Below are positions 1 to 20,061 of a stretch of DNA of 64,000 bases, piece by piece. The translations under genes and the position numbers were made by a program. Within the stretch, counting starts at the first letter, position 1. Each line of letters begins with the position of its first letter. Source of the stretch: Roseimaritima ulvae (lineage in GTDB: Bacteria > Planctomycetota > Planctomycetia > Pirellulales > Pirellulaceae); the NCBI RefSeq assembly GCF_008065135.1, contig NZ_CP042914.1:3825404-3889403 (forward strand), in the 5' to 3' direction. Under the pieces are notes generated by a model, which saw nothing but the letters and a program-made list of their open reading frames with translations, was not told the origin of the DNA and did no database searches.

Positions 1-1972
1 TCCAAAAGTCAAACGTGCCGGTCGCAGCCTTGGGGGCGATGCGAAACTCGACGTGCCCCGCGGCTTGATCAGCCGCCAACGTGAAGTCCGGCAGCGAAGT
101 ATTGGCCGGCAGATTGCGGCCGCGGAAAATAACAGGCTGCGGGGCTTCCTCGTCTCGCGTGACTTGGACGGGCAAGCGCAGCTTACCGCCGCGAGCCATC
201 CGCATGCCTTCGGCCGCGGCCGAGACGGAAATGTCGGTCGGCCACATCGGATGATCGAGGATGTCCAGCATCAGAGCCGACGTCAGTCGATGGCCGACCA
301 CGTTGCGGTGGCCGTGCGCGGCGGAAGCAATGGTCGCCGCGTAGGCTCGTTTGACATTACCCGGCGCCGGCAGGTCCGCCGCCGCGCCTTCGATCTGCAA
401 CGTATGCAGGGTGCGAATCGTGTTGATGTCGGCCGACAGCAGTAACGTGGTGCGGTTTTGGCTCGCCGCGATCCGGCCTCCTTGGCAGACGACGCCGGTT
501 GGCAGGTTTTTGATGGCGACATCGATGGGCCCGTTGAAGCCTTGTTGGCGGACGGCAAAGACTTCGATGGCCGTTGTTCCACCGGGCGACAAGCCGAGGC
601 CCGTCGGCTGAGATTGAGCATCGTTATTGGAGCCATGAGGGACGTAGGCGAACAATTCAAACCCGGGCGTTGCCGGCGCCACCGAAAGCAAGTATTGCAC
701 AGGAGCGTCCGCAGGCCGGGCATTAAACTGGTCACGCACCCGGACAACAAATTCGCCATCGTGAGGAGCGGTAAACAGAACGCCGGAATCACGTGGAACG
801 CTGCGAACCGCCGCCGTTCCGACCGCTGGCAGGTCGTCGTTTTGAGCCAGCAACTTGGGGCTCTTCTCGGAGCTCTCGGCGGGACTGTCAAACACCAAGA
901 TCATGGGGTCGGTGGCTTGACCCAACCGCTGCGAAATCACTTCGATCGCGATGCGGGCGCCCTGCGAGGCCTGAAAACGAAACGCGTCTTCGTCGATGCG
1001 GTCGGTTAAAAACTTGCCCTGCACCAGGCCGGGCAGCGGGATCGGCAGGGGCTGAGTATCCGGCGTGGCTTGTTCGTCGTGGACCAGCGGTTTCAGGCCC
1101 TCGGGCAGCGTCGGCAGCGACGCAGCGGCGACCCCTTGGGGCTGTGGCAGCTCCGCTGGCAGCGGCTTGCCCGGCTGGCCGAAACGCCGGAGCTGTGCCA
1201 ACGTTTCCAGCAAAGCGGGCCGTGCCGGCGGGGTCGCTTCTGGGGTCACGGTGGCGGACAACAAGTACGTGTAGGGACTGCCGCCCCGAAACAGGAAATC
1301 GCTGACCTGCAGTACATACGTGCCTTCGACCTCGCTCGCATAATCGCACCGGGGATCCGCGCCATCGATGGGAACCGCGTCGAGCACGCATGCGCCGTCG
1401 GGGGAAAACAGCCGCAGCTGCAGCAGGGCTCGCGAATCCAGCGTTTGCGCCAGAGAGTGGACGTGGAGGTGTTGGCCGGCCTGCAGATCCAGTTTGTAAT
1501 GATGCACCTGTTCCGCTTGGCAGCGAGCCTGCACCCATTGGCCCGGCACCAGTTCGACGGCCTGATCTGCGGCGGCGTGCTGATTGCCCACCGCCACCAC
1601 CGGTGCGTCGCTGACCAAGAAGGGCAGGGGATTGCTAACTCCATAGGCGCCGACCGCCCAAGCTTCGTAGATGCCCGGGGGAACCGCGGCGTCGATGGTG
1701 ACCGAAAACCGTCCCTGGTCCATTGGTGGGTGAATGTCAAAGGGCAGGGCGGGGGCGTGCAAAACAGACGCTTGAATCAGAGGATGCGAAAACACCAAGC
1801 GGTCCACTTCGGTCAGAAATTGCCCGGTTTCCAATCGCAGTTCCAGCGAAGTACCGGCCTGTCCTGCCTGGCGACTGATGGCGGTCATCTGGGTAACCGG
1901 CACCTGAGCCAGGGCTGGCGCGGCGGTGATCGCGGCCCAGGTCAGGACGGCCAAAACGGTCTGCATGCGCAT
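1..1972 (-). CDS. Secreted PPC-domain protein, C-terminus beyond window edge
   Basis: The frame is open from an ATG at 1972 (an alternative ATG lies at 1966) to the first base, so about 657 residues are present and the C-terminus is missing. The N-terminus (MRMQTVLAVLTWAAITAAPA) is a signal peptide. The body holds two segments with the sense of bacterial pre-peptidase C-terminal (PPC) domains, which are beta-sandwich modules of exported proteins: one around residues 150-240 and one around 330-430 (DEDAFRFQASQGARIAIEV is typical). The start overlaps the stop of the upstream DUF1549/DUF1553 gene by one base (TGATG), so the genes are translationally coupled. PPC proteins next to DUF1501 and DUF1549 genes recur in planctomycetes; their function is unknown. 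The identification as PPC is by eye. Confidence 0.75.
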   Translation of the reverse strand, partial: MRMQTVLAVLTWAAITAAPALAQVPVTQMTAISRQAGQAGTSLELRLETGQFLTEVDRLVFSHPLIQASVLHAPALPFDIHPPMDQGRFSVTIDAAVPPGIYEAWAVGAYGVSNPLPFLVSDAPVVAVGNQHAAADQAVELVPGQWVQARCQAEQVHHYKLDLQAGQHLHVHSLAQTLDSRALLQLRLFSPDGACVLDAVPIDGADPRCDYASEVEGTYVLQVSDFLFRGGSPYTYLLSATVTPEATPPARPALLETLAQLRRFGQPGKPLPAELPQPQGVAAASLPTLPEGLKPLVHDEQATPDTQPLPIPLPGLVQGKFLTDRIDEDAFRFQASQGARIAIEVISQRLGQATDPMILVFDSPAESSEKSPKLLAQNDDLPAVGTAAVRSVPRDSGVLFTAPHDGEFVVRVRDQFNARPADAPVQYLLSVAPATPGFELFAYVPHGSNNDAQSQPTGLGLSPGGTTAIEVFAVRQQGFNGPIDVAIKNLPTGVVCQGGRIAASQNRTTLLLSADINTIRTLHTLQIEGAAADLPAPGNVKRAYAATIASAAHGHRNVVGHRLTSALMLDILDHPMWPTDISVSAAAEGMRMARGGKLRLPVQVTRDEEAPQPVIFRGRNLPANTSLPDFTLAADQAAGHVEFRIAPKAATGTFDFW

Positions 1973-4488
1973 CAGTGGTTGAATCCGAACTCTTTGGTGT
2001 TGATCAAAGCCCAAGTCAGATCCTCGAACGCTTGGCGGCGGTCCTCGCGATCCTGCAGATACTGCAGCGAAACCGACAATTCCGAGGCGGTGGGCGGTCG
2101 GGACAGGGCTGCCAGATAGAGCTCGTTCAACTGCGTTTCAGTTGCCTTCGCGTTGGGTGACTCGCCGGCGTAGCGTGCCGACCGGCCTCCATCGTCGGTC
2201 AACTTTGCCAACATCTGGCTGGAATTTAACAGATGTAAGCTCTGCGCAAGATTGGACTCGGTGGTCCGCTCACACTCGCAGGCGGTCTTGGCGGCAGGTC
2301 GGCCGAAGACGGTTAAGAAATACGAATCAAAGCCGGTGTCGGGCAGCGAGATCGCGCGGGTTCCGGCCGGCATCCCGGCGAACTTGGTGTCCGTCTCCAA
2401 TACATCGTCGATGGCATCCAACATGACTTCGGCGGTCAGACGTTTGGGATAGAACCGCGAGTGGCTTTTCTCGTCGCGGACGTTAAACGCGTTGGCTTCG
2501 GAGGATCGCTGATAGGCTTCGGATTGGCAGATATGACGCACCAGCGCGCGGAGGTCGTAGCCCGAGCGAACAAATTCATCCGCCAAATGTTCCAGCAACG
2601 GAACGTTGGAGGGCGGATTGGTGACCCGCAGATCGTCTTCGGGATCGACGATCCCACGACCGAAGAAATGTTTCCAGTAGCGGTTCACAAGCGCCTTGGC
2701 GAAGAACGGATTGTCGGGATTGGTCATCCAATCGGCCAACACAACGCGCGGATCTTCGGCGGCGGCGATTTCCTGGGGTTCGGCATCCAAACCCACGGGC
2801 TGCAGAGCCTTGCCCGTACGAGGATGGCGGGCCGTGGCCATCCCCACCTTGCTGACTAGCGCCGGTTGATCGGGCGTGCTGCCCGGCTTTGTACCGACCA
2901 TCGAAAAGAAGGCGGCCATCTGGAAGTAGTCCGTTTGACTCCACTTCTCAAACGGATGGTGGTGGCAGCGGGCGCATTGGATTCGCTGGCCCAAAAACAG
3001 CTGAGCCGCGTCCTCCACTCGCTCGTCCCGCGTGGCAACCGTGCGATACCAGGCTACCGGCGGGTTGGCATCGATGTGTCCAGTGGCCGTGATGATCTGG
3101 CGTACAAATTGATCGTAGGGTTTATTTTCGGCCAGGCTGCGGCGGATCCAACGCGCGAATGCGTAGGTGCCGTATTGATACCCGGTCGATTTCCGCTCGT
3201 TGCGCAAAATCGTCATCCACTTGCTGGCAAACCACTGCGCGTAGTCCGGACTGTCCAGCAGCCGTTCGATCAGTTCGTCGCGTTTATCCGCAGAGCTATC
3301 GGCGGAGAAGGCACGTGCTTCCTCGACAGTCGGTAAACGACCGGCCAAGTCCAACGTTACGCGGCGGATGAACGTCGCATCATCGCAGCGCGGTGAAGCG
3401 GGGATGTTTAAACGCGCCAGTTTGGCGTTGATGGCTTCGTCGATGGGATTGCGGGGCGGTGGCAAATCAACGATTGCCGCGGAGGTGTCCATTTCCAGGG
3501 GCACCGAACCGCTATAGACGCTGACCAGTCCTTGGTAGCGGGCCATCACGGCAAAATCGCCGGTTAAATCCGCCACGGTCACAAAGCCGTTTTCATCGAC
3601 GTTGGCCATCGCCGTATCGTTGCATTCGTACTGCACCGTACGAGTGATATCTTCGCGGCTGCCGTCCGAATACACTGCCGTGACACGCAACTGTTGGTGA
3701 CTGCCTCGGGTGACGGTCGATTCGGGGGGAAAGACGTTGATCGAGGTTACGTGGGCGGCATCGGGATCGCCACGGGGCGCGCCCTGGGCGATCCAGCGAC
3801 GCAGCAAACGATACTCGTGGCTGTCTTTCTGCATCCGTTGTCCACCGCCATGAGGCGATTCATTTAACGCTTTTAATAACAGCAGGCTGTGCTGCGGAGC
3901 GGTGGGAAAGATCCGCCGGCCTCGAGATTCGATCACCAATCCGGCGTAATCGTCTTCGGGTTGGAACCCCAGCAGCGATAGTTTGAAACCGTTTTGACCG
4001 GCGGCTTTGCCGTGGCAGCCACCACCATTGCACCCCAGTTTGGTAAAGATGGGCACAATCTGGTTGGCGAAATGAACCGGTTGCTGGACTTCAAATCCGG
4101 TTACCACCACTTGCACCGAAGTGCTCAAGCCGTCCTCGCTGCGGGCCGTCACAGTCGCCTCGCCGGTGGCTAGCGGATGCACCAGTCCGGTGTCGGACAC
4201 CGCCACGATGTCGCTTGGGGAAGTGGTGTACGTGACCTGGTGCGTAATGTCCCGCTGTGCCGCGGACGATACTCGCGATACCAGCAATTGATGCCTGGCA
4301 TCACGGCCTGCCAACACCACCGGGGCTTCGGCGTCGACTTGCGCGAAACGGATTTGATCCGTCGAATCGGCGGCGGCCAGCGACGACGGCAATCCACAAA
4401 TTGCCCAGCAAGCCAACGCCAGCATCGGACTGCAGGGGAACAACCAGCGGCGCAGAGGTAACTTAAATGAGTTCACGAATCGGCTCAT
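1972..4488 (-). CDS. DUF1549/DUF1553 cytochrome-like secreted protein with Ig-like domain
   Basis: This 838-residue exported protein has a hydrophobic N-terminal signal (residues 12-40). A BIG2-type Ig-like segment follows at about 45-130, then a planctomycete cytochrome-c-like segment with CNGGGCH at 153-159, a second Ig-like segment at about 240-335, the DUF1549 domain at about 345-555 containing CARCHHHPFEKW, and the DUF1553 domain to the end. CARCH is a classical CXXCH haem-attachment motif; the first motif has four residues between the cysteines. These proteins are hallmark Planctomycetes families whose biochemical role is not established, although haem binding and a periplasmic site are likely. 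The start overlaps the end of the DUF1501 gene by 26 bases, consistent with one operon. The family call is secure; the electron-transfer role is inference. Confidence 0.9.
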   Translation of the reverse strand: MSRFVNSFKLPLRRWLFPCSPMLALACWAICGLPSSLAAADSTDQIRFAQVDAEAPVVLAGRDARHQLLVSRVSSAAQRDITHQVTYTTSPSDIVAVSDTGLVHPLATGEATVTARSEDGLSTSVQVVVTGFEVQQPVHFANQIVPIFTKLGCNGGGCHGKAAGQNGFKLSLLGFQPEDDYAGLVIESRGRRIFPTAPQHSLLLLKALNESPHGGGQRMQKDSHEYRLLRRWIAQGAPRGDPDAAHVTSINVFPPESTVTRGSHQQLRVTAVYSDGSREDITRTVQYECNDTAMANVDENGFVTVADLTGDFAVMARYQGLVSVYSGSVPLEMDTSAAIVDLPPPRNPIDEAINAKLARLNIPASPRCDDATFIRRVTLDLAGRLPTVEEARAFSADSSADKRDELIERLLDSPDYAQWFASKWMTILRNERKSTGYQYGTYAFARWIRRSLAENKPYDQFVRQIITATGHIDANPPVAWYRTVATRDERVEDAAQLFLGQRIQCARCHHHPFEKWSQTDYFQMAAFFSMVGTKPGSTPDQPALVSKVGMATARHPRTGKALQPVGLDAEPQEIAAAEDPRVVLADWMTNPDNPFFAKALVNRYWKHFFGRGIVDPEDDLRVTNPPSNVPLLEHLADEFVRSGYDLRALVRHICQSEAYQRSSEANAFNVRDEKSHSRFYPKRLTAEVMLDAIDDVLETDTKFAGMPAGTRAISLPDTGFDSYFLTVFGRPAAKTACECERTTESNLAQSLHLLNSSQMLAKLTDDGGRSARYAGESPNAKATETQLNELYLAALSRPPTASELSVSLQYLQDREDRRQAFEDLTWALINTKEFGFNH

Positions 4489-5806
4489 GCTCTACCAAGA
4501 ATTGCGGGCGTCCCGTGGGATCGACGACCGTGGTGGTCGAAACGTCGATGCCCAAGTTGTGATACAGCGTGGCCAACACTTCTTGCATGTGGACCGGGCG
4601 GTCTTCGGCATGCTCGCCCAAACGGTTGGTGCTGCCGATGGCTTGCCCGCCCCGGATGCCGCCTCCGGCCAGATACGCACAACTGACCTGGGGCCAGTGG
4701 TCGCGACCGGCATTGCCGTTGATTTTGGGAGTCCGGCCGAACTCTCCCCAGACCACGATCGTCACGTCGTCCAACATGCCCCGCTGTTCCAGGTCTTCAA
4801 TCAATGCGCTCAGGCACTGGTCCAGTTTGCCACCGTGGTCGCGAACCATGTCGAAGTTTTTGGAATGGCTGTCCCAGCGTCCGTAGCTGAGGCTGACAAC
4901 GCGGACGCCGGCTTCGATTAAACGGCGAGCCAACAGCAGGTGGTCGTTACAGGTGGGCGCTCCGTCGTACTGGAATTGGTAAGGTTTGCCATCGCCATAC
5001 CGTGCGACGATTTTGGGATCTTCCTTTGACAGGTCCAGGGCATCCAACAATTTGCTGCTGGTCAACACGTCCAAGGCCTGCTGCCCAAAGGCATCCATAC
5101 CGGCCATCGCCCCGGTAACGTCGATGTCCCGCCGCATGGTGTCCAGGCTGGCCAGTAACTGTTTGCGATCCTGCAGCCGGTCCAGCGTGATGCCTTGCAG
5201 CTTCATATTGTCCATGCCAGGCCCGTCGGGACGAAACGCGGAATAGGCCGCGCCCAGAAAACCGGCGCCGCCGGGATGCGCCCAAGGCCGATGTCGCGTC
5301 GGTTTGGCCAGTCCCACAAAGGGAGGCACCGCTGGGTCGACGGGACCTCGCAACTTGGCCGTCGCCGCGCCCAGCGAAGGGTGTCCGCCCAGGTTCTTCA
5401 ATTGGTTTTGATTCCAACCGCTCATGCACATATATCCGTCGTGTCCGCCCGTGCAGCCGACCACCGAACGGACCACCGCGGCGCGATTCATCAATCCCGC
5501 CAAGCGGGGAAAGACTTCGCAGATCTGCACGTCCGGCGACTCCGTGCTGATCGGCCGGAACTCGCCACGGATCTCCGACGGAGCTTCGGTCTTAATGTCC
5601 CACATGTCTTGATGCGGCGGGCCACCGGCCAGGAAGATGTTGATCACCGCCTTGTGCGAATGGGACTTGCCCGCCGCCGCTTCGGCACGCAACAGGTCGG
5701 CCAAGCCAAAGCCGCCGACGCCCATTCCCAGAGTGCCGATTTTGAGAAAGTCACGACGCGATTGACCGTCACAACAGCGCTGACTACCACCGAAGATGTT
5801 TAACAT
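4463..5806 (-). CDS. DUF1501 Tat-exported sulfatase-fold protein
   Basis: The 447-residue product begins with a twin-arginine signal (SRRDFLKIGTLGMGVGGFGL, residues 17-36) followed by the DUF1501 body. Visible family marks include FLAGGPPHQDMWD near residue 58, VVRSVVGCTGGHDGYMC near 114-130, VWGEFGRTPKINGNAGRDHW near 350-370 and the closing HNLGIDVSTTTVVDPTGRP. DUF1501 belongs to the alkaline phosphatase/sulfatase superfamily, but its substrate is unknown. Export by Tat implies a folded, possibly cofactor-bearing enzyme. It is the first gene of a three-gene minus-strand operon with DUF1549/DUF1553 and PPC proteins, an arrangement repeated many times in planctomycete genomes, which suggests the products act together outside the cytoplasm. 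Confidence 0.92.
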   Translation of the reverse strand: MLNIFGGSQRCCDGQSRRDFLKIGTLGMGVGGFGLADLLRAEAAAGKSHSHKAVINIFLAGGPPHQDMWDIKTEAPSEIRGEFRPISTESPDVQICEVFPRLAGLMNRAAVVRSVVGCTGGHDGYMCMSGWNQNQLKNLGGHPSLGAATAKLRGPVDPAVPPFVGLAKPTRHRPWAHPGGAGFLGAAYSAFRPDGPGMDNMKLQGITLDRLQDRKQLLASLDTMRRDIDVTGAMAGMDAFGQQALDVLTSSKLLDALDLSKEDPKIVARYGDGKPYQFQYDGAPTCNDHLLLARRLIEAGVRVVSLSYGRWDSHSKNFDMVRDHGGKLDQCLSALIEDLEQRGMLDDVTIVVWGEFGRTPKINGNAGRDHWPQVSCAYLAGGGIRGGQAIGSTNRLGEHAEDRPVHMQEVLATLYHNLGIDVSTTTVVDPTGRPQFLVEHEPIRELI

Positions 5807-6126: not shown

Positions 6127-8097
6127 ATGGCAGGTTTGCATTCAAGACCGGTTGTTCGCTACCTCGCTCGTCGGTGGGCTGTGGCGGTGCTGTGTGGCGT
6201 AGGGGTGAGCGTTGCCGGATGCGAGAGTCTGGACCAGCCCAAGCGGGACGTCGGCCAACAACGCAATCAGCAACTATACCAGCAAACGCTGCTGAACACG
6301 GCACTGCCGGAAACCGTGTTGCCGTCGATCGCCGATCTTGGCGCCCCAGGCGGAGCCGCGCCGGCCGAACGGCAGGAGCGCGAGATGTCTTTGCATGAAG
6401 CGCTGACGATCGCGATGACGCAGCCTGATGTCAAACGCGTGGACGTGGACGGCCAGGTGGCTGCCTCGCCCAATACCTTTTATGACATCCAGGCGTCCGA
6501 AGCTCGACTGCAAGCGGCCCTGACCGCGTTTGACGCGACCCTTGATTCGAAACTGTATACCAACCAATTCAAAAGCCCCCCCAACGCGTTCTTTGGTCCT
6601 GGGTTAACGCAGCCCGAGAATCGCGACGAGGCGGCCGTCCAATTTGGTTTAACCAAACCGCTGCTGCACGGCGGATTGTTGTCCACCAACTACAACCCCG
6701 ATCCCGGCTACTTCTTCCTTCCGGGCGGGACCACCGACAGTTTCAATCCCACCTACGCCAGTGAATGGCAGGTGTCGCTGAAGCAACCGCTACTAAGAAA
6801 TGCAGGGTTAGAGGTCAACATCGCACCGATCCAGGTCTCGCAGTTGGAAGTCGAACAGTCGGCCTGGGAATTCAAAAACACCTTGATGGCTTCGATTCGC
6901 GACGTCGTGGAAACCTACTGGCAACTGCACGCCACGGATGTCGCCCTACGGGAATACGAACAGGTGATCCCGGTGTTGGAAGAAATTGTGCGACTGCAAC
7001 GGGAATCGCTTCGCGCCGAATTGGTGATCGCCGCCGATGTCGCCAAGGCCCAAGCCAAACTGCATGAATACAAGCAGGAATACATTCGCATTCAGTCCGA
7101 GCGGGTAACGCGTGAACTGCGACTGCGAAACCTGTTGCAGCTTCCGCCCCACGACGGCTATACGCTGCGAACCGTCACGCCGCCGACGGACCAACAACGG
7201 CGGTTGGACACCGGCCAAGCCTATTTGGTCGCCGTCGACAACCAACCCGACATCGTCAAGAAACGTTTGGACGTGTGCATCCGCAGGCTGGAGTTGCTGG
7301 TCAAAGCCAACCAACGCAAACCCGATCTGGATTTCACCGCACTGTATCGCTTGAACGGGCTGGGAGAAAACCTTGGCGACGCCTGGGACCAGATGGCGAG
7401 CGCGGAATTCACCGACGTCGAACTGGGAATCGCATTTTCGATGCCCGTGGGCATGCGGCGAGGCAAGGCCGAGTACCAGGAGGCGCGATTTCGCCTGGCA
7501 CGCGATCAGCGGTTGTTGGAACAGCAATCGTTTTCGGCGCTGCACGCCTTAACCGAAGCGGCTCGGCAAGTCGAATTGGCGTACCAAGAATACGAGCAGG
7601 CTAAGTTGCAACTGAAATACGCCACCGAGTGGACCAAGGGCGCTAAGTTGCGTTACGAAAACCCCGAACCGGAATCGAGCAGCAGTAACTGGATGGTGGA
7701 AAATCTGAACGACTACTACTTCGCTATCCGGTCGCGAACCGATGCCACCATCGCCGTCGCCGAAGCGCTGAATCAATACAATTTTCAAATGGTACGGTTC
7801 GAAGAAGTCCAAGGGACGTTGTTGGAATTTTTTGCCATCGACTACGTCAGCGATCCCTGTCGACAAGCCTCACGGTTGGCTCCGCTGGCGGTGCCCGCCA
7901 CGGCGTTGCCGGAGTCGCCGACCGCAGGGGAACGCCTGATCGATCGCCTGCAGTCGGCGACGATTGATCAGCCCGCGACGCTAGAGCAGCCAGTAGCGAG
8001 CGGTCAGCCAGCAGTGATTGGTCCGCCGGTAAATGCTCAGCCGGCGATGGCGGATGCCAGCTTTCAAGAGTTCATTGAAACCTTGAACCAGTATTAA
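6127..8097 (+). CDS. TolC-family outer membrane efflux lipoprotein
   Basis: From the ATG at 6127 the protein has 656 residues. The frame extends upstream, but this ATG places a lipoprotein signal correctly: a double Arg, a hydrophobic run and the lipobox VAGC with Cys32. The body carries two copies of the outer-membrane efflux repeat. Coiled helices such as QLEVEQSAWEFKNTLMASIR and the later RLARDQRLLEQQSF are typical of TolC/OprM trimers that form the exit duct of type I secretion and efflux pumps. A Pro/Ala/Gln-rich tail (about residues 590-640) follows. It converges on the M50/HlyD fusion gene with only 25 bases between the stops. That fusion contains the periplasmic adaptor that a TolC needs, so the two probably form one export route. 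The cargo is not shown by the sequence. Confidence 0.85.
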   Translation: MAGLHSRPVVRYLARRWAVAVLCGVGVSVAGCESLDQPKRDVGQQRNQQLYQQTLLNTALPETVLPSIADLGAPGGAAPAERQEREMSLHEALTIAMTQPDVKRVDVDGQVAASPNTFYDIQASEARLQAALTAFDATLDSKLYTNQFKSPPNAFFGPGLTQPENRDEAAVQFGLTKPLLHGGLLSTNYNPDPGYFFLPGGTTDSFNPTYASEWQVSLKQPLLRNAGLEVNIAPIQVSQLEVEQSAWEFKNTLMASIRDVVETYWQLHATDVALREYEQVIPVLEEIVRLQRESLRAELVIAADVAKAQAKLHEYKQEYIRIQSERVTRELRLRNLLQLPPHDGYTLRTVTPPTDQQRRLDTGQAYLVAVDNQPDIVKKRLDVCIRRLELLVKANQRKPDLDFTALYRLNGLGENLGDAWDQMASAEFTDVELGIAFSMPVGMRRGKAEYQEARFRLARDQRLLEQQSFSALHALTEAARQVELAYQEYEQAKLQLKYATEWTKGAKLRYENPEPESSSSNWMVENLNDYYFAIRSRTDATIAVAEALNQYNFQMVRFEEVQGTLLEFFAIDYVSDPCRQASRLAPLAVPATALPESPTAGERLIDRLQSATIDQPATLEQPVASGQPAVIGPPVNAQPAMADASFQEFIETLNQY

Positions 8098-8122
8098 AGC
8101 TCGCGGATTGTGAAATCGCGGG

Positions 8123-10603
8123 CTACCACTGGAATTCAGTCCGCAGAATTCGCAGCATGGCATGGACCAACAGCACGCCGCTCGGTCGCCGTTTGCTGTG
8201 GATGCGTCCGAACCCGGTCATTCCCGTCCGCAGCGTGCCGGCGGAGTTATCGACCTTGCAGTACACGGTCACGGTGCGTGAACCACTGGGCGGGGTCGGC
8301 GGCGTGCCGGCGGCGGCTAGCGCGATACCACCAACGGGTTGGGCGGCCGGGGCAATTCGATCGACCGTCGCGGTGAGGCTTTCAAAGGGCAGCGAGCGTG
8401 GCTTCAGCGTGATCGGCTGGCCGATCACCAACACCCGCGCGTCCTTTTCCGAAATCGAGATCTCGGCTTCCAGGTTTTGCAGGTCTTCGATCACGCACAG
8501 CGGGGTTCCGCGATCGACATAGACGCCGATCTTCTCTTTCAGGTGGGGCGTAATGATGGTTCCGCCGACCGGGCATTTGACGATTTGCTTTTCTTGTTTT
8601 CGAAGCAGGTGGTTGAGTTCTTGTTTCAGCCGTTGGAGGTGCGCCTGTTCGGCCTCGATGTCCTCTTGTCGCGAACCGGCTTCGAGCAGCGTGAGGGCCG
8701 CTTGGGCGTCGGCCAGTTCCTTTTCGCGACGCGCCAATTCGCCTTCAAACTTGATCACGCCTTCGGCTTCTCGTGCCTGTTTAAGCGCTTCGGCGCGGTT
8801 GGCTTCCAGGACCGCTTCTTGTTTGTTTTTTTTGTGGGTTAATAGTTGCTGACCGGCCAACCCGCCGGCGTCATGCAGGGACTGCATCTTGACCAACACC
8901 TGCTCACAGAATTCGAGTTGAGCGGCCGCGCTCTTGCGGCTCAATTCCAACGCCGCCAGTTCTTTGTCCAGGCTCTGCCGGGCCCGTTCCAAGTCGCTGA
9001 TCGCCAGGTCTCGCCAATCGCTCGCGCGGACGATCCGAGCCTTTTGGTCATCGATTTGTTCTTGGCGGGGTCCGCAGGTTAATCGCCGCAAGATCGCTTC
9101 GACCTCCGCAATCTCGGATCGCTTGGTGGCCAAATTGCTGATCAGATCGGGCACTTCAATCACGGCCAACGGGGCGTCGCCTGCCACCACGTCGCCTTCA
9201 TCGAAATGAACATCGCGGACAAAACCCGCGATCGGCGCGCGGACTTCTCGGCGAACAACCGGCCGCAGATAAAACTCACCCCCGGCGCGATCGTGTATGG
9301 GGATGGCCAGCAGGCCGGCGACCACTGCCAACAGAATCAACAGCCGGAACTTTCGTAAGCGTAACATGGTTCTGAAATTCTCCCCCAAAGTTCCCGAAAA
9401 GTAGCGTCTGGTCAGCAGGCAGAAGAACCCGAAGGCCGCAAACAAACTGCTGATCCCCATCAGGGATTGCAGGTACAGCGACGCCTGGAAACTCATCAGG
9501 CCTAAGAAGCCGACCGTAAAGATCCAATTGGCCATGCCGAAGGTTAACAGCCGGCCATGCTCGGGATCCGGTCCCGGTTTTTCACCGCCCCATGCCAGCC
9601 AGCGTACGTGAGCCACGAAACGTGCTCGGGCCCGGCGACGAAGGTTATGCGTGTTCAGGACGTCGCAGAGTGCATAGTAGCCGTCCAGTCGCATCAAGGG
9701 ATTTAGATTGAATGCGACCCGGATCCCACATGCCGACACGACCACCCAGGCCGCAAAATTGATCGAGCTGTCGGGCGTGGTGGCGCGCCAGACGAACACC
9801 GCCACGATCCACACCAAAAAATCGACATATGTCCCGGCCATGCTGATCAACAAACGCTGCCAACGGCTGGGCAGCAGCCAAGCGTCCGAAACGTTGCAGT
9901 ACAGGCAGGGCGTAAAGAAGATCCACAACGCCCCCATCTCATGCACTTCGCCGCCGTAGCGTTTGCAAGCCAAGCCGTGACCGAACTCGTGGAGGATCGT
10001 GATCGCAATGATCGTGAGCCAAAACACCGCCAACGTTTTCCAGCCGAGGTGGGTGCTGAATTGCTGCACCAACACACTGCGGTCGCTCCACACAATCCCC
10101 AGGGCCAGGCATCCCAGAATCATCGCCGCGACGGCAACGGTGGGGCTGAACAAGGCTCGGGTGCGCGGTTCCAAGCGGTTCAGGACCGCATCGGGATCGA
10201 ACAGCTTGACGCGAAAGAACAACAGGCTCTGCTTCTTCGCTGCTGTACGGCAGCGACGCCAGAGGTCCGTCAAGCGTAGCGATTGCGTCTGGTCACCGGA
10301 GCTTGACGAACGGCTGTGCGAGCGCTGGACCAATCCCTCCTTGCGGGCCAACGCCACAAAACCGCTCAACTCTTCGATCGTCAGAGGTTCACTGAACTGC
10401 TGCTCGAACTTGCCGACCACCTGAGCGTAGGTTTGTTGCCCGTCGAGCATCGAAAGCAGAAACGATTCCTGAGGTCCCAGTCTCATGTAGCGCTGCTTGC
10501 GATGGTTTTTGACCACCGTGACCCCGTCCGCATCAGGGGAGGCGATACGGATGTCCTCGCTGATTCGTGGAATCGTTTCGGTGGAGGATTTCGTTGCAGA
10601 CAT
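8123..10603 (-). CDS. PqqD-like / site-2 (M50) protease / HlyD adaptor fusion
   Basis: This is an 826-residue membrane protein; the ATG at 10603 follows a possible TTG at 10606. Its parts in order are as follows. Residues 30-95 form a small PqqD-like (RiPP-recognition-type) winged-helix segment. Several membrane spans start near 155. The zinc protease motif HEFGH is at about 205-209, with the partner metal site NPLMRLDG at about 301-308, as in site-2 proteases. After further membrane spans comes a biotinyl-lipoyl-like barrel (REVRAPIAGFVRDVHFDEGD, near 460). A long coiled coil follows (about 490-660), and the end is an HlyD-type beta domain. Such proteins are thought to bind a peptide, cut it in the membrane and pass it to an outer-membrane duct. 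The convergent TolC gene and upstream small peptide gene fit this. The peptide-maturation role is inference. Confidence 0.85.
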   Translation of the reverse strand: MSATKSSTETIPRISEDIRIASPDADGVTVVKNHRKQRYMRLGPQESFLLSMLDGQQTYAQVVGKFEQQFSEPLTIEELSGFVALARKEGLVQRSHSRSSSSGDQTQSLRLTDLWRRCRTAAKKQSLLFFRVKLFDPDAVLNRLEPRTRALFSPTVAVAAMILGCLALGIVWSDRSVLVQQFSTHLGWKTLAVFWLTIIAITILHEFGHGLACKRYGGEVHEMGALWIFFTPCLYCNVSDAWLLPSRWQRLLISMAGTYVDFLVWIVAVFVWRATTPDSSINFAAWVVVSACGIRVAFNLNPLMRLDGYYALCDVLNTHNLRRRARARFVAHVRWLAWGGEKPGPDPEHGRLLTFGMANWIFTVGFLGLMSFQASLYLQSLMGISSLFAAFGFFCLLTRRYFSGTLGENFRTMLRLRKFRLLILLAVVAGLLAIPIHDRAGGEFYLRPVVRREVRAPIAGFVRDVHFDEGDVVAGDAPLAVIEVPDLISNLATKRSEIAEVEAILRRLTCGPRQEQIDDQKARIVRASDWRDLAISDLERARQSLDKELAALELSRKSAAAQLEFCEQVLVKMQSLHDAGGLAGQQLLTHKKNKQEAVLEANRAEALKQAREAEGVIKFEGELARREKELADAQAALTLLEAGSRQEDIEAEQAHLQRLKQELNHLLRKQEKQIVKCPVGGTIITPHLKEKIGVYVDRGTPLCVIEDLQNLEAEISISEKDARVLVIGQPITLKPRSLPFESLTATVDRIAPAAQPVGGIALAAAGTPPTPPSGSRTVTVYCKVDNSAGTLRTGMTGFGRIHSKRRPSGVLLVHAMLRILRTEFQW

Positions 10604-10678
10604 CAAACCATTACCGAGACCTTTGCCGAAACCAATGCCGCTTGGACATGCCGAACGCGGCGGACGGTCTCGGCGTGC

Positions 10679-11152
10679 TTACGCCGTCGTCGACGGAACT
10701 TCGTCGGCAACCAGATGCGGCGGCTTGGAACCCTCAGGGCCGCGAGTCAAAATCGCCACACTCTCGCGCTCGCTGAGCACATGCACGCCAAAGGGCAGGC
10801 CGTCTTGGCGGCAACGCGTGGCGCGATGATGCCCGTCGATCAAACGATGCGCATGAACCACGGTGCCATCGTCATCGCGGTAATACAGGTGGGCCACAAT
10901 GCCTGGGTATTGAGGATCGACGTGCGCTAAATGACCTTCGTTGATCTCACAATGATCAATCGAATAGTCCACGTCGTCGGCGTCTAACTCGAACACTTCG
11001 CGGCCGTCCGCAACGATCTCTCGAGCCATGTCGATGTCAAAGACGTATTTCTTCTTAAAGCAATGAAAGGCCTCGCCGTGACGATTGCATCGCGAGCAGT
11101 CCGCGGGGGAAACGCTGTGCTCGGCTGCTTGGTTCTCCGCTTTGCGACCCAT
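10679..11152 (-). CDS. Small DGHHR-motif protein of unknown function
   Basis: The 157-residue soluble protein has a Cys/His cluster near the N-terminus (CSRCNRHGEAFHC, about residues 20-32) that could bind zinc, an acidic middle (ELDADDVDYSIDHCEIN), and the motif HRLIDGHHRATRC at about 103-115. DGHHR is the core of ParB/sulfiredoxin-type folds, where it lies in a nucleotide-binding site, but the rest of the protein is too short and diverged for a firm assignment. It ends 75 bases before the start of the M50/HlyD fusion and lies downstream of the Ser-Lys repeat peptide gene, all on the same strand, so it is probably part of the same export or modification locus. I do not recognise a named family. 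Confidence 0.75.
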   Translation of the reverse strand: MGRKAENQAAEHSVSPADCSRCNRHGEAFHCFKKKYVFDIDMAREIVADGREVFELDADDVDYSIDHCEINEGHLAHVDPQYPGIVAHLYYRDDDGTVVHAHRLIDGHHRATRCRQDGLPFGVHVLSERESVAILTRGPEGSKPPHLVADEVPSTTA

Positions 11153-11245
11153 GACTTGGGGTACCCCTTGTTCGAGTGAATGCTGACTTCATGTCTCCAG
11201 CGCCGCACCGAATCCATTCACTTTAGCTGAAAACCAAACCGGCCG

Positions 11246-11275
11246 GACGAGCGAACGCGAAAGCGCTCGCTCGTC
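11246..11275 (-). terminator. Strong hairpin between SK-repeat gene and DGHHR gene
   Basis: A perfect 9-bp outer stem (GACGAGCGA paired with TCGCTCGTC) encloses a CGC-GAAA-GCG inner stem. Read on the minus strand it is followed by a T-rich stretch. It may be a terminator or attenuator that lowers expression of the downstream genes relative to the abundant small peptide. Confidence 0.45.
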
Positions 11276-11371
11276 CACCGGTACGGAACCATCCGCCAGC
11301 CTCCGCTGCGGACCGCTTAGGCAGCGATCGCCGCCATCAACCGGTCGGCATCTAGCAGCCGGCCGATGCAA

Positions 11372-11665
11372 CTACCATTTGCCCCTGTGGCCGCGGCCAC
11401 CTTTGGAACCGCTCTTGCCCTTGGAGCTACTCTTGCTCTTGGATTTCGACTTGCTCTTGGATTTCGACTTGCTCTTCGATTTCGACTTGCTCTTCGACTT
11501 CGACTTCGACTTACTCTTCGATTTCGATTTGCTCTTGGAACTGCTACCGGAGCCCGAGCCGCTGCCCGAACCCGAGCCGCCTTTGCCCCCGGAACCTCCG
11601 CCCCCCCCGTAGATCTTGCTCGGTGCAATGCGATCTTCGAGACGTTCTAGTTTGAACTTTTCCAT
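11372..11665 (-). CDS. Short Ser-Lys repeat peptide with LERLEDRIAPS leader
   Basis: From the ATG at 11665 the product has 97 residues; upstream extension to 11704 is unlikely. It starts MEKFKLERLEDRIAPSK, a motif close to the LE-x-LE-x-R export or anchoring motif at the N-termini of many planctomycete surface proteins. A Gly/Ser spacer follows (about residues 19-40), then about nineteen Ser-Lys dipeptides and a basic tail ending GRGHRGKW. The DNA of the repeat is itself a degenerate tandem repeat. The chain is highly positive and unstructured. A leader-like segment followed by a simple-sequence core, upstream of a PqqD-like/M50/HlyD exporter gene, makes it a candidate secreted peptide or silaffin-like polycation. 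No family name is claimed. Confidence 0.7.
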   Translation of the reverse strand: MEKFKLERLEDRIAPSKIYGGGGGSGGKGGSGSGSGSGSGSSSKSKSKSKSKSKSKSKSKSKSKSKSKSKSKSKSKSKSSSKGKSGSKGGRGHRGKW

Positions 11666-14553: not shown

Positions 14554-17500
14554 CTACGCTTGATCGCTCAACAGCGTCAGGGCGTCATCGACGGCCGCGG
14601 CATCGACCTCGCCGTCGGAACTGCCCGTCAAAAGTTCTTCGGCCGTCGTGGGTTGTTCACCGGGAGTGGCAACGTCGGCCATCGCACTGTCGATCGCCTC
14701 GGTGCGTTGTTGGGCCAGCAGGGCCAAGTCAGAGCTTTCTTGCTCGTCGGAGTCCGCCGGCGAGTTGATGATCGCTGCTTGGTCGCTGCCGAGCGTTACC
14801 GTGGGAACCTGTCCGGATTCCAGCGAAGCGGAAGACTCACCCTGCGCGGTCTCTTCGCCTTGAGCGAAGGCTTCACCCTGAGCGGCGTTACTTGAACCCG
14901 AAGAGTCGTCGGCGAAACCAAACACGTCGGCGCCCAGGTTGATGCGAAGCAGTCGTATCCCGTCGCTGACCGCACGGATTTCGACGTCCGTGGAGTCGCC
15001 ATTGACGGAGGCGGACGCGGTTTGGCGAGTGCCGCTGGAGTCGCTAACTTCGACGGTTACTTGACTGCCGTCTTCGTTCAGCGAGACCGCCGGATCGGAC
15101 ATCTCCGTTTGACCGTTTTCCGCGATCACAAACAAGCTGGAATCTCCCGGAGCAACGGCGGCAAACACGGCCTGTTTGGGGGCCGAGCCGACGAAGTCAC
15201 GGATCGACATGAACTCGGGTCGCAACGAGCCGACCTGCTGCAGCGTTTGCACCACGTTGCCATCGTTTGCACCCGAGGTAATTTCGATCGACTGAGCTTC
15301 TTCACCGCCAATTAAAAACGGCATGGCGGGAATTTCGATGCGGTAGGTACCCGGCGCTTGGTCGGCAAACACGACCTCGTTGGCGGATCCCGAAGCGGAC
15401 AGTTCCACATCCACCGCTTCGCCATAATCGGTGGTTCCGACCAAACGGGCGCGGAAGGGGATCAGCATGTTGGTCGAGGGCAACTGAACGGTGAAGCTGC
15501 GCGGTTGGTAGTCCAGGACGTTGACGGTGATCGTGCCGGTTGCCGTGGCGCCCGAACTGTCGGTCAGCGTGTAGGTAAACGAATCACTGCCGGTGTAGGT
15601 GCTCGAGGGCGGGGTGTAAGTAATCGTGTCGCCGACGATGGCGACGGTACCGGCGGAAGCCGTGCTGCCCACCGAAGTAATGGTCAGCCCTTCGCTGTCG
15701 CCGTCGACGTTGGTGCCAGCATCGGCGATTTCAAACACGGTTTCCGCCGCATCGCCCTTGATGATATTGGTCGTCACGGCGCCGGCCGGGGGCGGATCGT
15801 TAACTCCCGTCACGGTAACCGTAATGGTGCCCGTGGCCGAGGCGCCGCCGGAGTCGGTGATCGTGTAGGTGATCTGTTCAGTGCCAAAGAAGTTCGCCGC
15901 CGGAGCATACACGACTTTGGTGCCGTCATCAGACAAGCGGACCGTGCTGCCATTACTGGAATCTCCTACCGCGGTCAGCGAAAAGGCTTCCGACGAGTCG
16001 GAGTTGAAATCGTTGACTAACACGTCCAGTTCGGCTTCGGCCGCGTCTTCAACCACGGTATAGGCATCATCGACGGCCGTCGGCGGCGGGTTGGCGGTAC
16101 CGACGTTAACCGTCACCGTGGCCTGGCTGGTCAGCGCGCCGTCGGAGATCGTGTAGGTGAAAGTGTCGGTGCCGGTAAAGTCTGCCGGGGGCGAATACAG
16201 CACGGCGTCGCCGCCGGATTCAATCGTCACCGTGCCCCCGGCCGAGCTCGTGCCGACGGCGGTGACGGTTAAGGTTTCGGATGAATCCGGGAGGATGCTG
16301 TCGTTCGCCAACACATCCAATCGGTTATCGGTTGTATCCGCGTCCACTTCGAAAGTGTCGCTGACCGCCGTGGGCGCGTCGTTGACGGCGGTAACATTGA
16401 CGGTAACAGTGGCTGTCTGTTGGGCGCCGGAGGAATCACGCACGACATAGGTAAATGTTTCAGCGCCGGAAAAATCGGTCGCCGGAGTGTACAGGATTTC
16501 CCCGCCACTGATGGTTACCTGGCCACCGGAATCGGGCGTGCCCACGCTGACCAATGACAATGTGGTACCGGATCCGGCAGGGATTTCGTCGTTATCCAGC
16601 ACATCGAAAGCATTGTTCGTGCTGTCTTCGCTGACGGTGAAACTATCGTTGTTAGCCGTAAACGCGGCTTCGATTTGCAAACTGACGCTGCCGAAGGCCA
16701 CGTCTTCGACGGGCGTTTTGGCGTCAGCGTCATAAAGCAAGAAATCGGTGCCGTTGGTATCGGCCGGGTCGGCGATGAACGTCGCGTCGCCGGATTGATT
16801 GGCTCGCATACGGACCGTGGCGATCAGCGTGATTTCGCCGCCATTGCCGGAAAACGAATCGCTAAACGCACCCAACTCGTCGATCAGGCCCTCGGAGATA
16901 CTGCCTACGGTGTTGGGAAAATCATCGCCGGCTTGGATCGGATCATCAGCGACAACCGAAACCAAGTCGCTGTCGAAGGTGATGTCGGTGTAGGCGGCGA
17001 ACACGCCCAGTTGCGAAAACGGCCGCGCGTCGCGTGCGGAAAATGTCAGCAGGAACTCTTCGCCCGAAGAGATACTGGTGATGGCGTTGCCATCCAAGTC
17101 GGTCACGCCCAGGATGATTTGACCGACCGCGGCTTCCTGGACGCCGACATCAAACGATTGAGTTCGGCTGTTTCCGGCCAGGTCCGTCATGACGACCGAC
17201 AGGGTTTGGTCGCCGATCTGACTTTCCACGGGCGTCCATTCGATCAGGCCGCTGTCCGGGTCGATCGTCGCTCCGGCCGGCGGGTTGCTGAGGCTATAGG
17301 TCAAGCCGCTGCCTTCTTCGTCGTGAGACAGGTTGGCGGAGAACTTTGTTCCCACGTTGGCATGGGTGCCGACCTGTTCGAGCGACACCGCGGCAGGTTG
17401 TACATTGTCGTACACCACCGTGATCGGACTGCTCGACGGACTATTGACGCCATCGGCGCCGCGTTGCCGAGCGACCACGCTGTAGGTACCGCTACCGAGC

Positions 17501-19356
17501 GCTTCAAAATTGGCGGTCGTGATGGTGACGGTTGATGACGTGGCCGAACCAATTCCCACCACGGTATCGCCGACCAACAATTCCACCGTGGCGCCCGCCG
17601 TCACGCCGCTGACGGTAAAGGTCAGCGGGTTCTCGCTGGTAACGTTATCCGTGGAGCTGCTGCCGCTGTCACTCCCGGCCACCAGATCGATGCCCGTCGG
17701 TGCCCCGGCGGTGAAGGTGACATTCAAAAACTGGATATCAATGGGCTGCGGTTGGGCTGGCGTCGCGGCGCTGTCGGCCGGCGTGACCGCAACGCCCACG
17801 CGGACCGTGCCGCTGTAGCCGGTGGGCGGGGTGACCGTCACCAAGCCGCTGGCCGAGACCGCGACGGTGGAGCCGGACGTGTCGGCCGAGTCGATTTCGG
17901 CGATGTATTCAACCGCGTCGCCTTCCAGGTCGGTCGATTCCAACTGGAACTGCGCGGGCGTACCCTGGCTGGATACCACCGGGTCGATGTCATGCAAAAA
18001 CGGCTGTGCATTGCTGACATCCGGGCCGATCGTCACCGGCACAATCTGACTGTATGTATTCCCATCGGTATCGGTAACCGTGAAGGTGACGTTGGTGGTG
18101 CCCGTGCCGTTGCCCGTCGGCCGCAACATCACCACTGAGTTTTCGGTGTCGTCAAACACGGTGACCGATTCGATCACCACGGGAATCACCGGATCCCCGG
18201 TTGTGGGATCGTTCACGGCCACGCGGCTGATGCCCTCTCGCACGTCTTCGCCTTCAACCAATTGGCCAAAGATCGAGTGCTGGAAGTCGAGACTCTGCTG
18301 GTTGCCTTCGGTAATGAAGAATTGACTGTCGTTGGTATCGTCGGAAGACTTTGCGTAAGACAGCAGACCGGTGTTGGTGTGTTGCAGATCGGCATGGTAC
18401 TGGTCGTCGAAATTGCCCAGCGATGATCCACCCGTACCGTCTCCATCCGGATCGCCCCCTTGCAGCACAAAGTTGTCAAGGATGCGGTGCAACGTCAGGC
18501 CGTCGTAGAAGCCACTGTTGGCCAATTCGATAAATCGGCTGGCCGGGCGATCGGCGCGCTGCTCGAACAACTCGAACACCATGTCGCCGTAACCCTTCAT
18601 GTCGATTCGCACGCTGCGATTGCCCTCGAGCACGATCGCTTCGAGCAGCGTGGGGTCTTCCACCGTGGCCGTCACGGTCAGAGGTTGCCCATTGGGATCA
18701 TAGGCGTTGATCGGGACGTGGATCGGAGAACCGATGGCGACCGATTGATTGGGGACGTCGACAAAGCTGGGCGTTTCAGATGTCGGAATGGGGATTCCGG
18801 ATGCCGCGGAAATCTGCTCCAGCGTCAGCACCTCGGTGAACCGGTTGTCGCCGCCAAAGTCCCAAGTGGGAAGGCTTTCAATTTCGTTGGCAATTCCCAC
18901 CGCGTTCAAGTTCCGCGAACCGTCGGTGACTTCCACAAAAGGCAGTTCAAACTGACCATCGCCGAACAATTCTTTCTGGTCGGTGCAATGCGGGCACCAG
19001 TCGGCACCATAAAACACCGCGCCCTGGTCCTTCAGCAACTTGGCAAAGGCCACCAGATCGGGGGCCTCTTCGCCCTGAGCTTCTTCGCCCTGAGCGGACT
19101 CACCCTGAGCTTGGGTGGCGGTTTGCTGAAACAGGGACTGGTCAACCGCATCGCTGCTGTCGCCGGTGGAAAACAGATCCACGTCGCCCGCTAGCATTTG
19201 CCGGCCTTCCAGCGTTTCCAGCTGCAGACCACGCCGCGGTTCGGCGGTTTGCCCGCGTCGCAGCCAGCCGGCCAGCAGCCGACGGGCGGCCGATCGCCGC
19301 TGGGTGGGGACGTCCAAATCAGGAGATGAAGCTGAGTTGCGAGAATTCCGTGGCAT
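14554..19356 (-). CDS. Giant surface protein: thioredoxin, cyclophilin, cohesin-like and cadherin-like repeats
   Basis: From the ATG at 19356 the protein has 1,600 residues (an upstream start at 19398 is possible). The N-terminus carries the planctomycete export motif LQLETLEGRQMLAGD (about 45-58). It is followed by an AQGE-rich linker, a thioredoxin-like domain with WCPHC at 120-124, and a complete cyclophilin-type peptidyl-prolyl isomerase domain (about 240-410; FYDGLTLHRI, GGDPDGDGTGG, NDSQFFIT and FGQLVEG are typical). Ig-like domains follow, then a cohesin-like segment near 760-910, and four tandem cadherin/VCBS-type repeats of about 95 residues each (for example NDSFTVSEDSTNNAFDVLDN). 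The C-terminus returns to AQGE-rich sequence. It is surely extracellular. Fusion of a redox site and a prolyl isomerase on an adhesin suggests extracellular folding, but that is inference. Confidence 0.88.
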   Translation of the reverse strand: MPRNSRNSASSPDLDVPTQRRSAARRLLAGWLRRGQTAEPRRGLQLETLEGRQMLAGDVDLFSTGDSSDAVDQSLFQQTATQAQGESAQGEEAQGEEAPDLVAFAKLLKDQGAVFYGADWCPHCTDQKELFGDGQFELPFVEVTDGSRNLNAVGIANEIESLPTWDFGGDNRFTEVLTLEQISAASGIPIPTSETPSFVDVPNQSVAIGSPIHVPINAYDPNGQPLTVTATVEDPTLLEAIVLEGNRSVRIDMKGYGDMVFELFEQRADRPASRFIELANSGFYDGLTLHRILDNFVLQGGDPDGDGTGGSSLGNFDDQYHADLQHTNTGLLSYAKSSDDTNDSQFFITEGNQQSLDFQHSIFGQLVEGEDVREGISRVAVNDPTTGDPVIPVVIESVTVFDDTENSVVMLRPTGNGTGTTNVTFTVTDTDGNTYSQIVPVTIGPDVSNAQPFLHDIDPVVSSQGTPAQFQLESTDLEGDAVEYIAEIDSADTSGSTVAVSASGLVTVTPPTGYSGTVRVGVAVTPADSAATPAQPQPIDIQFLNVTFTAGAPTGIDLVAGSDSGSSSTDNVTSENPLTFTVSGVTAGATVELLVGDTVVGIGSATSSTVTITTANFEALGSGTYSVVARQRGADGVNSPSSSPITVVYDNVQPAAVSLEQVGTHANVGTKFSANLSHDEEGSGLTYSLSNPPAGATIDPDSGLIEWTPVESQIGDQTLSVVMTDLAGNSRTQSFDVGVQEAAVGQIILGVTDLDGNAITSISSGEEFLLTFSARDARPFSQLGVFAAYTDITFDSDLVSVVADDPIQAGDDFPNTVGSISEGLIDELGAFSDSFSGNGGEITLIATVRMRANQSGDATFIADPADTNGTDFLLYDADAKTPVEDVAFGSVSLQIEAAFTANNDSFTVSEDSTNNAFDVLDNDEIPAGSGTTLSLVSVGTPDSGGQVTISGGEILYTPATDFSGAETFTYVVRDSSGAQQTATVTVNVTAVNDAPTAVSDTFEVDADTTDNRLDVLANDSILPDSSETLTVTAVGTSSAGGTVTIESGGDAVLYSPPADFTGTDTFTYTISDGALTSQATVTVNVGTANPPPTAVDDAYTVVEDAAEAELDVLVNDFNSDSSEAFSLTAVGDSSNGSTVRLSDDGTKVVYAPAANFFGTEQITYTITDSGGASATGTITVTVTGVNDPPPAGAVTTNIIKGDAAETVFEIADAGTNVDGDSEGLTITSVGSTASAGTVAIVGDTITYTPPSSTYTGSDSFTYTLTDSSGATATGTITVNVLDYQPRSFTVQLPSTNMLIPFRARLVGTTDYGEAVDVELSASGSANEVVFADQAPGTYRIEIPAMPFLIGGEEAQSIEITSGANDGNVVQTLQQVGSLRPEFMSIRDFVGSAPKQAVFAAVAPGDSSLFVIAENGQTEMSDPAVSLNEDGSQVTVEVSDSSGTRQTASASVNGDSTDVEIRAVSDGIRLLRINLGADVFGFADDSSGSSNAAQGEAFAQGEETAQGESSASLESGQVPTVTLGSDQAAIINSPADSDEQESSDLALLAQQRTEAIDSAMADVATPGEQPTTAEELLTGSSDGEVDAAAVDDALTLLSDQA

Positions 19357-20061
19357 CTGGGTCACGATGAAACCTGAATGGAAAGAACGCGAGGTCAAAA
19401 AAACGGGCCCTTGTGGCTACTTTCCACTCGGCCGGTTCGTGGCTGTATATTCAGTCGATTCGTTGCAACCCCTACCGCTTAACATCAGCAGGGCAGCGCG
19501 GAGGACTATGACGTAGCGAAAGACGCGAAAATACACGCCCCGCTCCGCAATTGGACGCCAACAGCGAAGGATTAGTTCCCCGCCTCTAAATAGGGGGATT
19601 CGCGGGCGAAACGGTCACGCACCTATTGTACGTCGGCCTTTCCAAGCAGGCGAAATTTTTTTTTCCGACGCTGGAGTCCAGGCTTTAGCCGCTTTGCGCG
19701 CATCGAAAGGGAGGCCGCCGGGGGCCGCTGGGGACAGTCACCGCGCCGTAGCTACCGTCGCCAGACGGTGGGAGCGCGGCGGCTCCGGGATATGGATTGC
19801 AAATTGCAAAATGAACATTGCAAATCGAACAATCGGTGCCACCCACCTATCTCGTCGAATTGCTTGCGTTTGGCAGGTGAACAATCGGTGCCACCCACCT
19901 ATCTCGTCGAATTGCTTGCGTTTGGCAGAACAATCGGTGCCACCCACCTATCTCGTCGAATTGCTTGCGTTTGGCAGGTGCGTAATAAGATGGTTGCAGC
20001 TAATGGAACCCATCGTTGTCCCGGGGGGGGCGCACAACTGGCACCTAAGGCCCAGGACCGC
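19357..20061. other. Intergenic region with repeats between surface-protein gene and pheT
   Basis: About 700 bases separate the start of the giant gene from the end of pheT. A GTAGCTAC-type palindromic repeat lies at 19748-19771, and an exact 49-bp triplet repeat lies at 19828-19977. The promoter of the giant gene should lie near 19360-19500. The remainder shows no coding signal. Confidence 0.6.
19828..19977. repeat. Three identical 49-bp tandem repeats
   Basis: Copies lie at 19828-19876, 19880-19928 and 19929-19977. All three are base-for-base identical and begin AACAATCGGTGCCACCCACC. A GTG spacer separates copies one and two and also follows copy three, so the original unit was probably 52 bases. 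It lies downstream of pheT in non-coding DNA. Perfect identity implies recent or ongoing expansion. Confidence 0.95.

Follow-up and report, generated by a model that had tools for sequence, protein, structure and literature searches.

What do the genes between positions 6127 and 11665 of this 64-kb window (the whole stretch of DNA analysed here) do together? A sequence-only reading had proposed that they recognise a peptide, cleave it within the membrane and export it. This is largely supported by gene linkage, by a predicted RRE fold and by the precedent of the daptides, the biochemical steps being those that we infer. In our judgement the locus is probably a compact RiPP-style maturation and export cassette, in which leader binding, cleavage and HlyD/TolC export would be combined with a DGHHR protein acting before export. 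The cassette consists of the following features.

11372..11665, minus strand: candidate precursor peptide, 97 aa, with LERLEDRIAPS in the leader
11621..11665, minus strand: leader MEKFKLERLEDRIAP, proposed RRE-binding motif, with proposed cleavage after Pro15
Leader peptide spanning F4, L9, E10, R12 and P15: MEKFKLERLEDRIAPSK
10679..11152, minus strand: DGHHR protein, 157 aa, with CxxC near the N-terminus and LIDG[HN]HRA; no Pfam family
8123..10603, minus strand: RRE - site-2 protease (M50) - HlyD fusion, 826 aa, ATG at 10603
10262..10603, minus strand: predicted RRE/PqqD-like part of the fusion (about residues 1-95, with linker)
6127..8097, plus strand: TolC-type outer membrane lipoprotein (Pfam OEP, E=1.8e-24)

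All parts that had been claimed were recovered in place from the open reading frames and Pfam. The small DGHHR protein and the 97-aa peptide lie upstream of the fusion on its strand, as described, and the TolC-type lipoprotein converges on the fusion with a stop-to-stop gap of 25 bp. Positions 1972-5806 (minus strand) carry an adjacent PSCyt2/PSD1 (DUF1549/1553) gene with a Big_2 domain and a DUF1501 gene.

The fusion had been described as a single 826-aa protein with HEFGH, NPLMRLDG, an HlyD part and a PqqD-like part, and this description holds. Pfam matched HlyD (2e-15) and M50 (9.7e-8), with PqqD sub-threshold in the window protein (0.024) and matched in 9 of 15 members (best 2.3e-6). Both site-2 protease motifs are intact (HEFGH at residue 206 and NPLMRLDG at 302, in the 827-residue reading), and H206, E207, H210, P303, D308 and G309 are invariant. 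Seven hydrophobic membrane segments were found in the window fusion by a crude hydropathy count that was less clean in relatives; this odd number would place the RRE inside and HlyD outside.

The proposal had been made to depend on a PqqD fold in the N-terminal domain. An RRE/PqqD fold is indeed predicted there, with leader-binding RREs as the top structural matches. The AlphaFold model, built from 15 members (pLDDT 83.7), was matched by Foldseek first to 5v1u, 6jx3 and 5v1v, all lasso RREs with bound leader (TbiB1 for 5v1u and 5v1v, lasso B1 for 6jx3), with a probability of 1.00 to TbiB1 and other leader-bound RREs and a best E of 4.2e-4. The RREs of ThcOx, SuiB, SkfB, TigE and the cyanobactin heterocyclase came next. 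A PDB sequence search with the same domain returned TbiB1 (5v1u, E 0.11) as the single match.

Among NCBIfam models, the best over residues 13-398 was the daptide intramembrane metalloprotease NF041824 (6.8e-66), at 222.9 bits and thus below the equivalog cut-off of 300. The same model gave 191-233 bits with the RTEFWW-type fusions scored and 157-185 bits with four further fusions encoded in the window's own genome. The C-terminus of the cassette fusions reads RTEFWW or nearly so, and in the tree these proteins form a single clade, separated (100/100) from 39 further planctomycete PqqD-M50-HlyD proteins. Another RTEFWW-type fusion, in genome G028 (L044:9583-12456), has no DGHHR or peptide gene within roughly 20 kb and may be either a solitary relative or what is left of a former cassette. 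It was scored from a guessed start point (L044:9583-12150) and left out of the fusion tree.

The candidate substrate is a hydrophilic, highly basic repeat without a membrane segment. The window peptide runs from the leader MEKFKLERLEDRIAP through a Gly/Ser-rich stretch and a repeat of Ser-Lys units to a short basic tail, with a core net charge of +26. The Ser-Lys repeat had been correctly noted before, but not its size, given as about nineteen dipeptides: there are 21, of which 18 form one uninterrupted run. Its serines use four codons, drawn from the TCN as well as the AGY box, in six distinct hexamers with the amino acids unchanged, a pattern to be expected of a repeat maintained at the protein level. 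In the 8.2 Mb genome, searched on both strands, the DNA pattern for LERLE[DE]R had one match, the window peptide gene.

Cassette leaders follow the pattern F-x-[LIV]-x-RLE[DE]R[IV][AV]P, and in an alignment of 11 sequences F4, R8, L9, E10, R12 and P15 are invariant while the core repeat varies. The leader codons of the window and G016 differ by six synonymous and two non-synonymous changes. The cores include SKSK, GGSSKK, GSHKGGSHK and GKGHSGKG repeats, all rich in Ser/Gly and basic residues and drawn from Ser/Gly/Lys/His, with net charges from +9 to +37, and the last residue of the peptides is W, K, C or P. Cysteine is found in most of them and is not essential, since the window, G016 and Rhodopirellula maiorica peptides have none. 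The leader contains no transmembrane segment, an uncommon trait among substrates of site-2 proteases.

Across GTDB, scanning for the DGHHR protein turned up 18 loci, every one of them in a record labelled Planctomycetota. Of 392 genomes sampled from the phylum, two encode the protein, one being the window's own genome. Among 40 relatives, it was present in three genomes only (G000, G016 and G013). In each of these the DGHHR gene is directly upstream of a fusion related to that of the window (69% and 33% identity in the two relatives), with the leader-bearing peptide upstream of the DGHHR gene. The other relatives among the 40, including three of the same genus, had no DGHHR protein. Because the gene is found in few genomes and with the same set in each, the cassette is rare and patchy, but coherent.

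We then have 20 DGHHR loci (the window, G016 and the 18 from the GTDB-wide scan), which are not independent: L075 is nearly the same as L077, whose contig is that of G013, and L068, L069 and L072 are closely related to one another. The fusion adjoins the DGHHR gene in 19 of the 20 (truncated in L080, where the contig stops); only L078 has none. A complete leader-bearing peptide was detected in 13 loci and a repeat tail only, cut by the contig end, in three more (L064, L065 and L073); it is absent in four, namely L069 and L070 (contig starts), L080 (a 3.3 kb contig) and L078 (no fusion). The order peptide, DGHHR, fusion holds in most loci; it is reversed in L079 (fusion, DGHHR, peptide), and L064 has its repeat tail on the far side of TolC. 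Linkage in relatives had been named beforehand as a test of the proposal, and the peptide, DGHHR and fusion genes do stay linked across Planctomycetota families, with leader and gene order conserved in Pirellulaceae, Planctomycetaceae and Gemmataceae. Almost the complete set is found on contigs of sufficient length. Convergent OEP proteins were identified with Pfam in 9 of 10 relatives, 8 of them immediately adjacent and that of L069 about 2.8 kb away; in L075/L077, TolC is not adjacent. The gene set and leader are conserved, the catalytic residues intact and TolC usually adjacent.

Two of these loci stand apart. L078 (L078:904-3831) lacks a fusion; next after its divergent DGHHR gene comes a 797-aa protein with the tag LEPLEDRITP, the sole sign that DGHHR might accompany larger tagged proteins. 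The contig of L072 (CAMDPK010000273.1) is labelled Candidatus Kuenenia and is possibly mis-binned or mislabelled; its fusion closely resembles the ones in L068 and L069, which carry the label Planctomyces sp. SH-PL62.

The DGHHR protein itself has a conserved CxxC and a conserved LIDG[HN]HRA box. Its structure model (pLDDT 86.5) had no significant fold match in PDB by Foldseek, and neither Pfam nor the PDB sequences gave one; a search for phage or plasmid relatives returned no match. One PHROG of unknown function matches three DGHHR members (3.4e-5) and is uninformative. By eye, the LIDGHHRA box resembles the ParB box. The idea of a ParB/Srx (serine-kinase) protein was rejected, as neither profile nor fold supported it: in an hhalign comparison with planctomycete ParB_N only the DGHHR box was aligned (probability 0.5%), and Srx was non-significant in the Foldseek search (E 1.6). 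No known RiPP-modifying enzyme was recognised in the window cassette, and the DGHHR protein, as its sole candidate modifier, could modify or escort the peptide.

Judged from its sequence, the cassette has both an HlyD adaptor and a TolC duct. A motif scan of the DNA around 18 cassette loci found no ORF with Walker A plus an ABC signature. We infer leader binding, cleavage, export, an inner-membrane route, a function for the DGHHR protein and a role of the peptide outside the cell as follows. The cytoplasmic RRE of the fusion would bind the leader of the 97-aa peptide (F-x-L-x-RLEDRIAP), and the fused site-2 protease would cut the leader off, probably just after Ala-Pro, that is, after Pro15. 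The cationic Ser-Lys/Gly repeat core would then pass to the HlyD part of the fusion and exit via the TolC-type duct, the DGHHR protein having modified or escorted the peptide ahead of export.

The leader resembles the LExLExR N-terminal tag of many secreted planctomycete proteins (often LEDRxxP); in the Gemmataceae genome with cassette L079, for example, RLRLERLEDRAVPD, RINLERLEDRWAPA and MRLESLEDRVTPA occur close to the N-terminus of large proteins. The tag is found order-wide (576 matches vs 77 in the reversed control), with 0 to 55 N-terminal LExLExRx[LM]L matches per genome among the 40 relatives. Both the likeness to large secreted proteins and the breadth of the tag would suit an ordinary surface or matrix protein that bears the tag and leaves by a general export route, the fusion exporting something else. 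We consider this unlikely, as tagged genes showed no clustering near the fusion paralogues on inspection of their positions, whereas the short peptide goes with one fusion clade and the DGHHR gene. A link between the order-wide tag and fusion copy number was not supported by the Spearman values (-0.09, p 0.58, raw and -0.42 per Mb, with some HlyD-only matches included in the fusion count). RRE-site-2-protease-HlyD fusions are present in every planctomycete relative searched. A wider idea, to which sequence resemblance lends a rather slim chance, is that the leader would be a minimal LExLExR tag, with these fusions as receptor, signal peptidase and export adaptor for the tag without an ABC transporter. 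About 3 kb from the cassette, the window also encodes (14554-19371, minus strand) a 1605-aa secreted protein with a LETLEGRQMLAGD tag, sub-threshold PF07595, a cyclophilin domain (PF00160) and Ig/cadherin repeats.

Regulated intramembrane proteolysis is the classical task of site-2 proteases, and the common planctomycete paralogues of the fusion adjoin a GAF-type/HlyD operon. Both points would fit signalling rather than export, with the protease cutting the peptide in the course of regulated proteolysis, the peptide working as a regulator in the cytoplasm or at the membrane, and TolC serving another substrate. This reading seems quite improbable to us: the conserved candidate substrate is highly basic and hydrophilic and has no membrane segment, TolC recurs beside the fusion, and no recurrent regulator gene was seen in the ORF lists of the cassettes. 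Replication slippage can create low-complexity SK repeats, but a chance repeat ORF beside unrelated efflux genes is extremely improbable and largely refuted by the linkage in relatives, to which the conserved leader and gene order in three families, the mostly synonymous leader changes and the mixed serine codon boxes can be added.

If the maturation and export reading is right, leader recognition, leader removal and export are joined in one polypeptide, whereas they are encoded by separate genes in the daptide system, and the cassette achieves this without an ABC transporter in the cluster. It would also give the planctomycete RRE-M50-HlyD proteins a candidate substrate and offer a way to test what the orphan LExLExR tag means. 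The Ser/Lys-rich cores may be surface, mineral-binding or polyanion-binding materials. In composition they are presumably silaffin-like, and a literature search for a silaffin link gave nothing relevant.

Several known systems share parts of this arrangement. The HlyD adaptor and TolC outer-membrane duct are as in type I or tripartite secretion, but the cassette adaptor is fused to a protease and the motif scan detected no ABC ATPase; since no linked ABC motor was found, the cassette is not a type I secretion system. With the PF07595/LExLExR tag the leader shares the LE-x-LE-x-R core, often followed by P or L, but it fronts a short peptide where the tag fronts a large adhesin, and Pfam gave no PF07595 match in the cassette peptides at E<=1. 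The epipeptide protease YydH/LiaK (NF058609) is likewise an M50 protease acting on a RiPP precursor. Its model lacks the RRE and HlyD parts of the cassette fusion and matched the window fusion weakly, in the M50 part only (36.7 bits, below the cut-off of 225).

A paralogous architecture is that of the 745-aa PqqD-M50-HlyD proteins present in all 40 relatives, which have the same three-domain order as the cassette fusion and also match NF041824. They differ in belonging to another clade (100/100 split), in a mostly TFNFEL-like C-terminus and in lying beside the GAF-type/HlyD operon, and no linked leader peptide or DGHHR gene was seen with them. That operon recurs in L045, L050, L052, L056 and L058-L061, where a protein of about 680 aa (GAF-type by eye) comes first, followed in most by an HlyD-like protein (300-420 aa) and then by the 745-aa protein, often with a further small neighbour.

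The traits of RRE-dependent RiPP systems seen in the cassette are a predicted RRE fold and a linked candidate precursor with a conserved leader and a variable core. In a literature search of partial coverage, no paper treating an RRE together with HlyD was found, and the cassette is apparently undescribed so far. The nearest counterpart is the daptide system (MpaP/DapP and the MpaA leader; PMC10036551; NF041824), which likewise has an N-terminal RRE fused to an intramembrane site-2 protease and short linked ORFs with a conserved N-terminal leader. Unlike daptide clusters, the cassette has a fused HlyD part, a hydrophilic repeat core where that of daptides is aliphatic, and a DGHHR protein; it also lacks DapB/C/D/M, the C-terminal Thr and an ABC transporter, and its fusion scores below the NF041824 cut-off. 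No DapB, DapC, DapD or DapM family was detected among the window neighbours scanned, relatives being judged by ORF lists only, and the cassette peptides do not end in the invariant C-terminal Thr of daptide precursors; with neither the terminal Thr nor the Dap enzymes, the cassette is not a daptide cluster.

In daptides, the RRE fused to the site-2 protease removes a leader with the motif ELExMEAP and Pro at -1, and in a related step Leu(-7) and Met(-4) are indispensable for recognition by the RRE of a separate protein, MpaB (PMC10036551). L(-7), E(-6), A(-2) and P(-1) of the daptide leader can be aligned with RLEDRIAP of the cassette: L, E, A and P match in position, whereas M and the other E residues do not. 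It is because the L, E, A/V and P of the cassette leader are equivalent to these daptide positions that we propose binding by the RRE, cleavage after Ala-Pro and delivery to HlyD/TolC.
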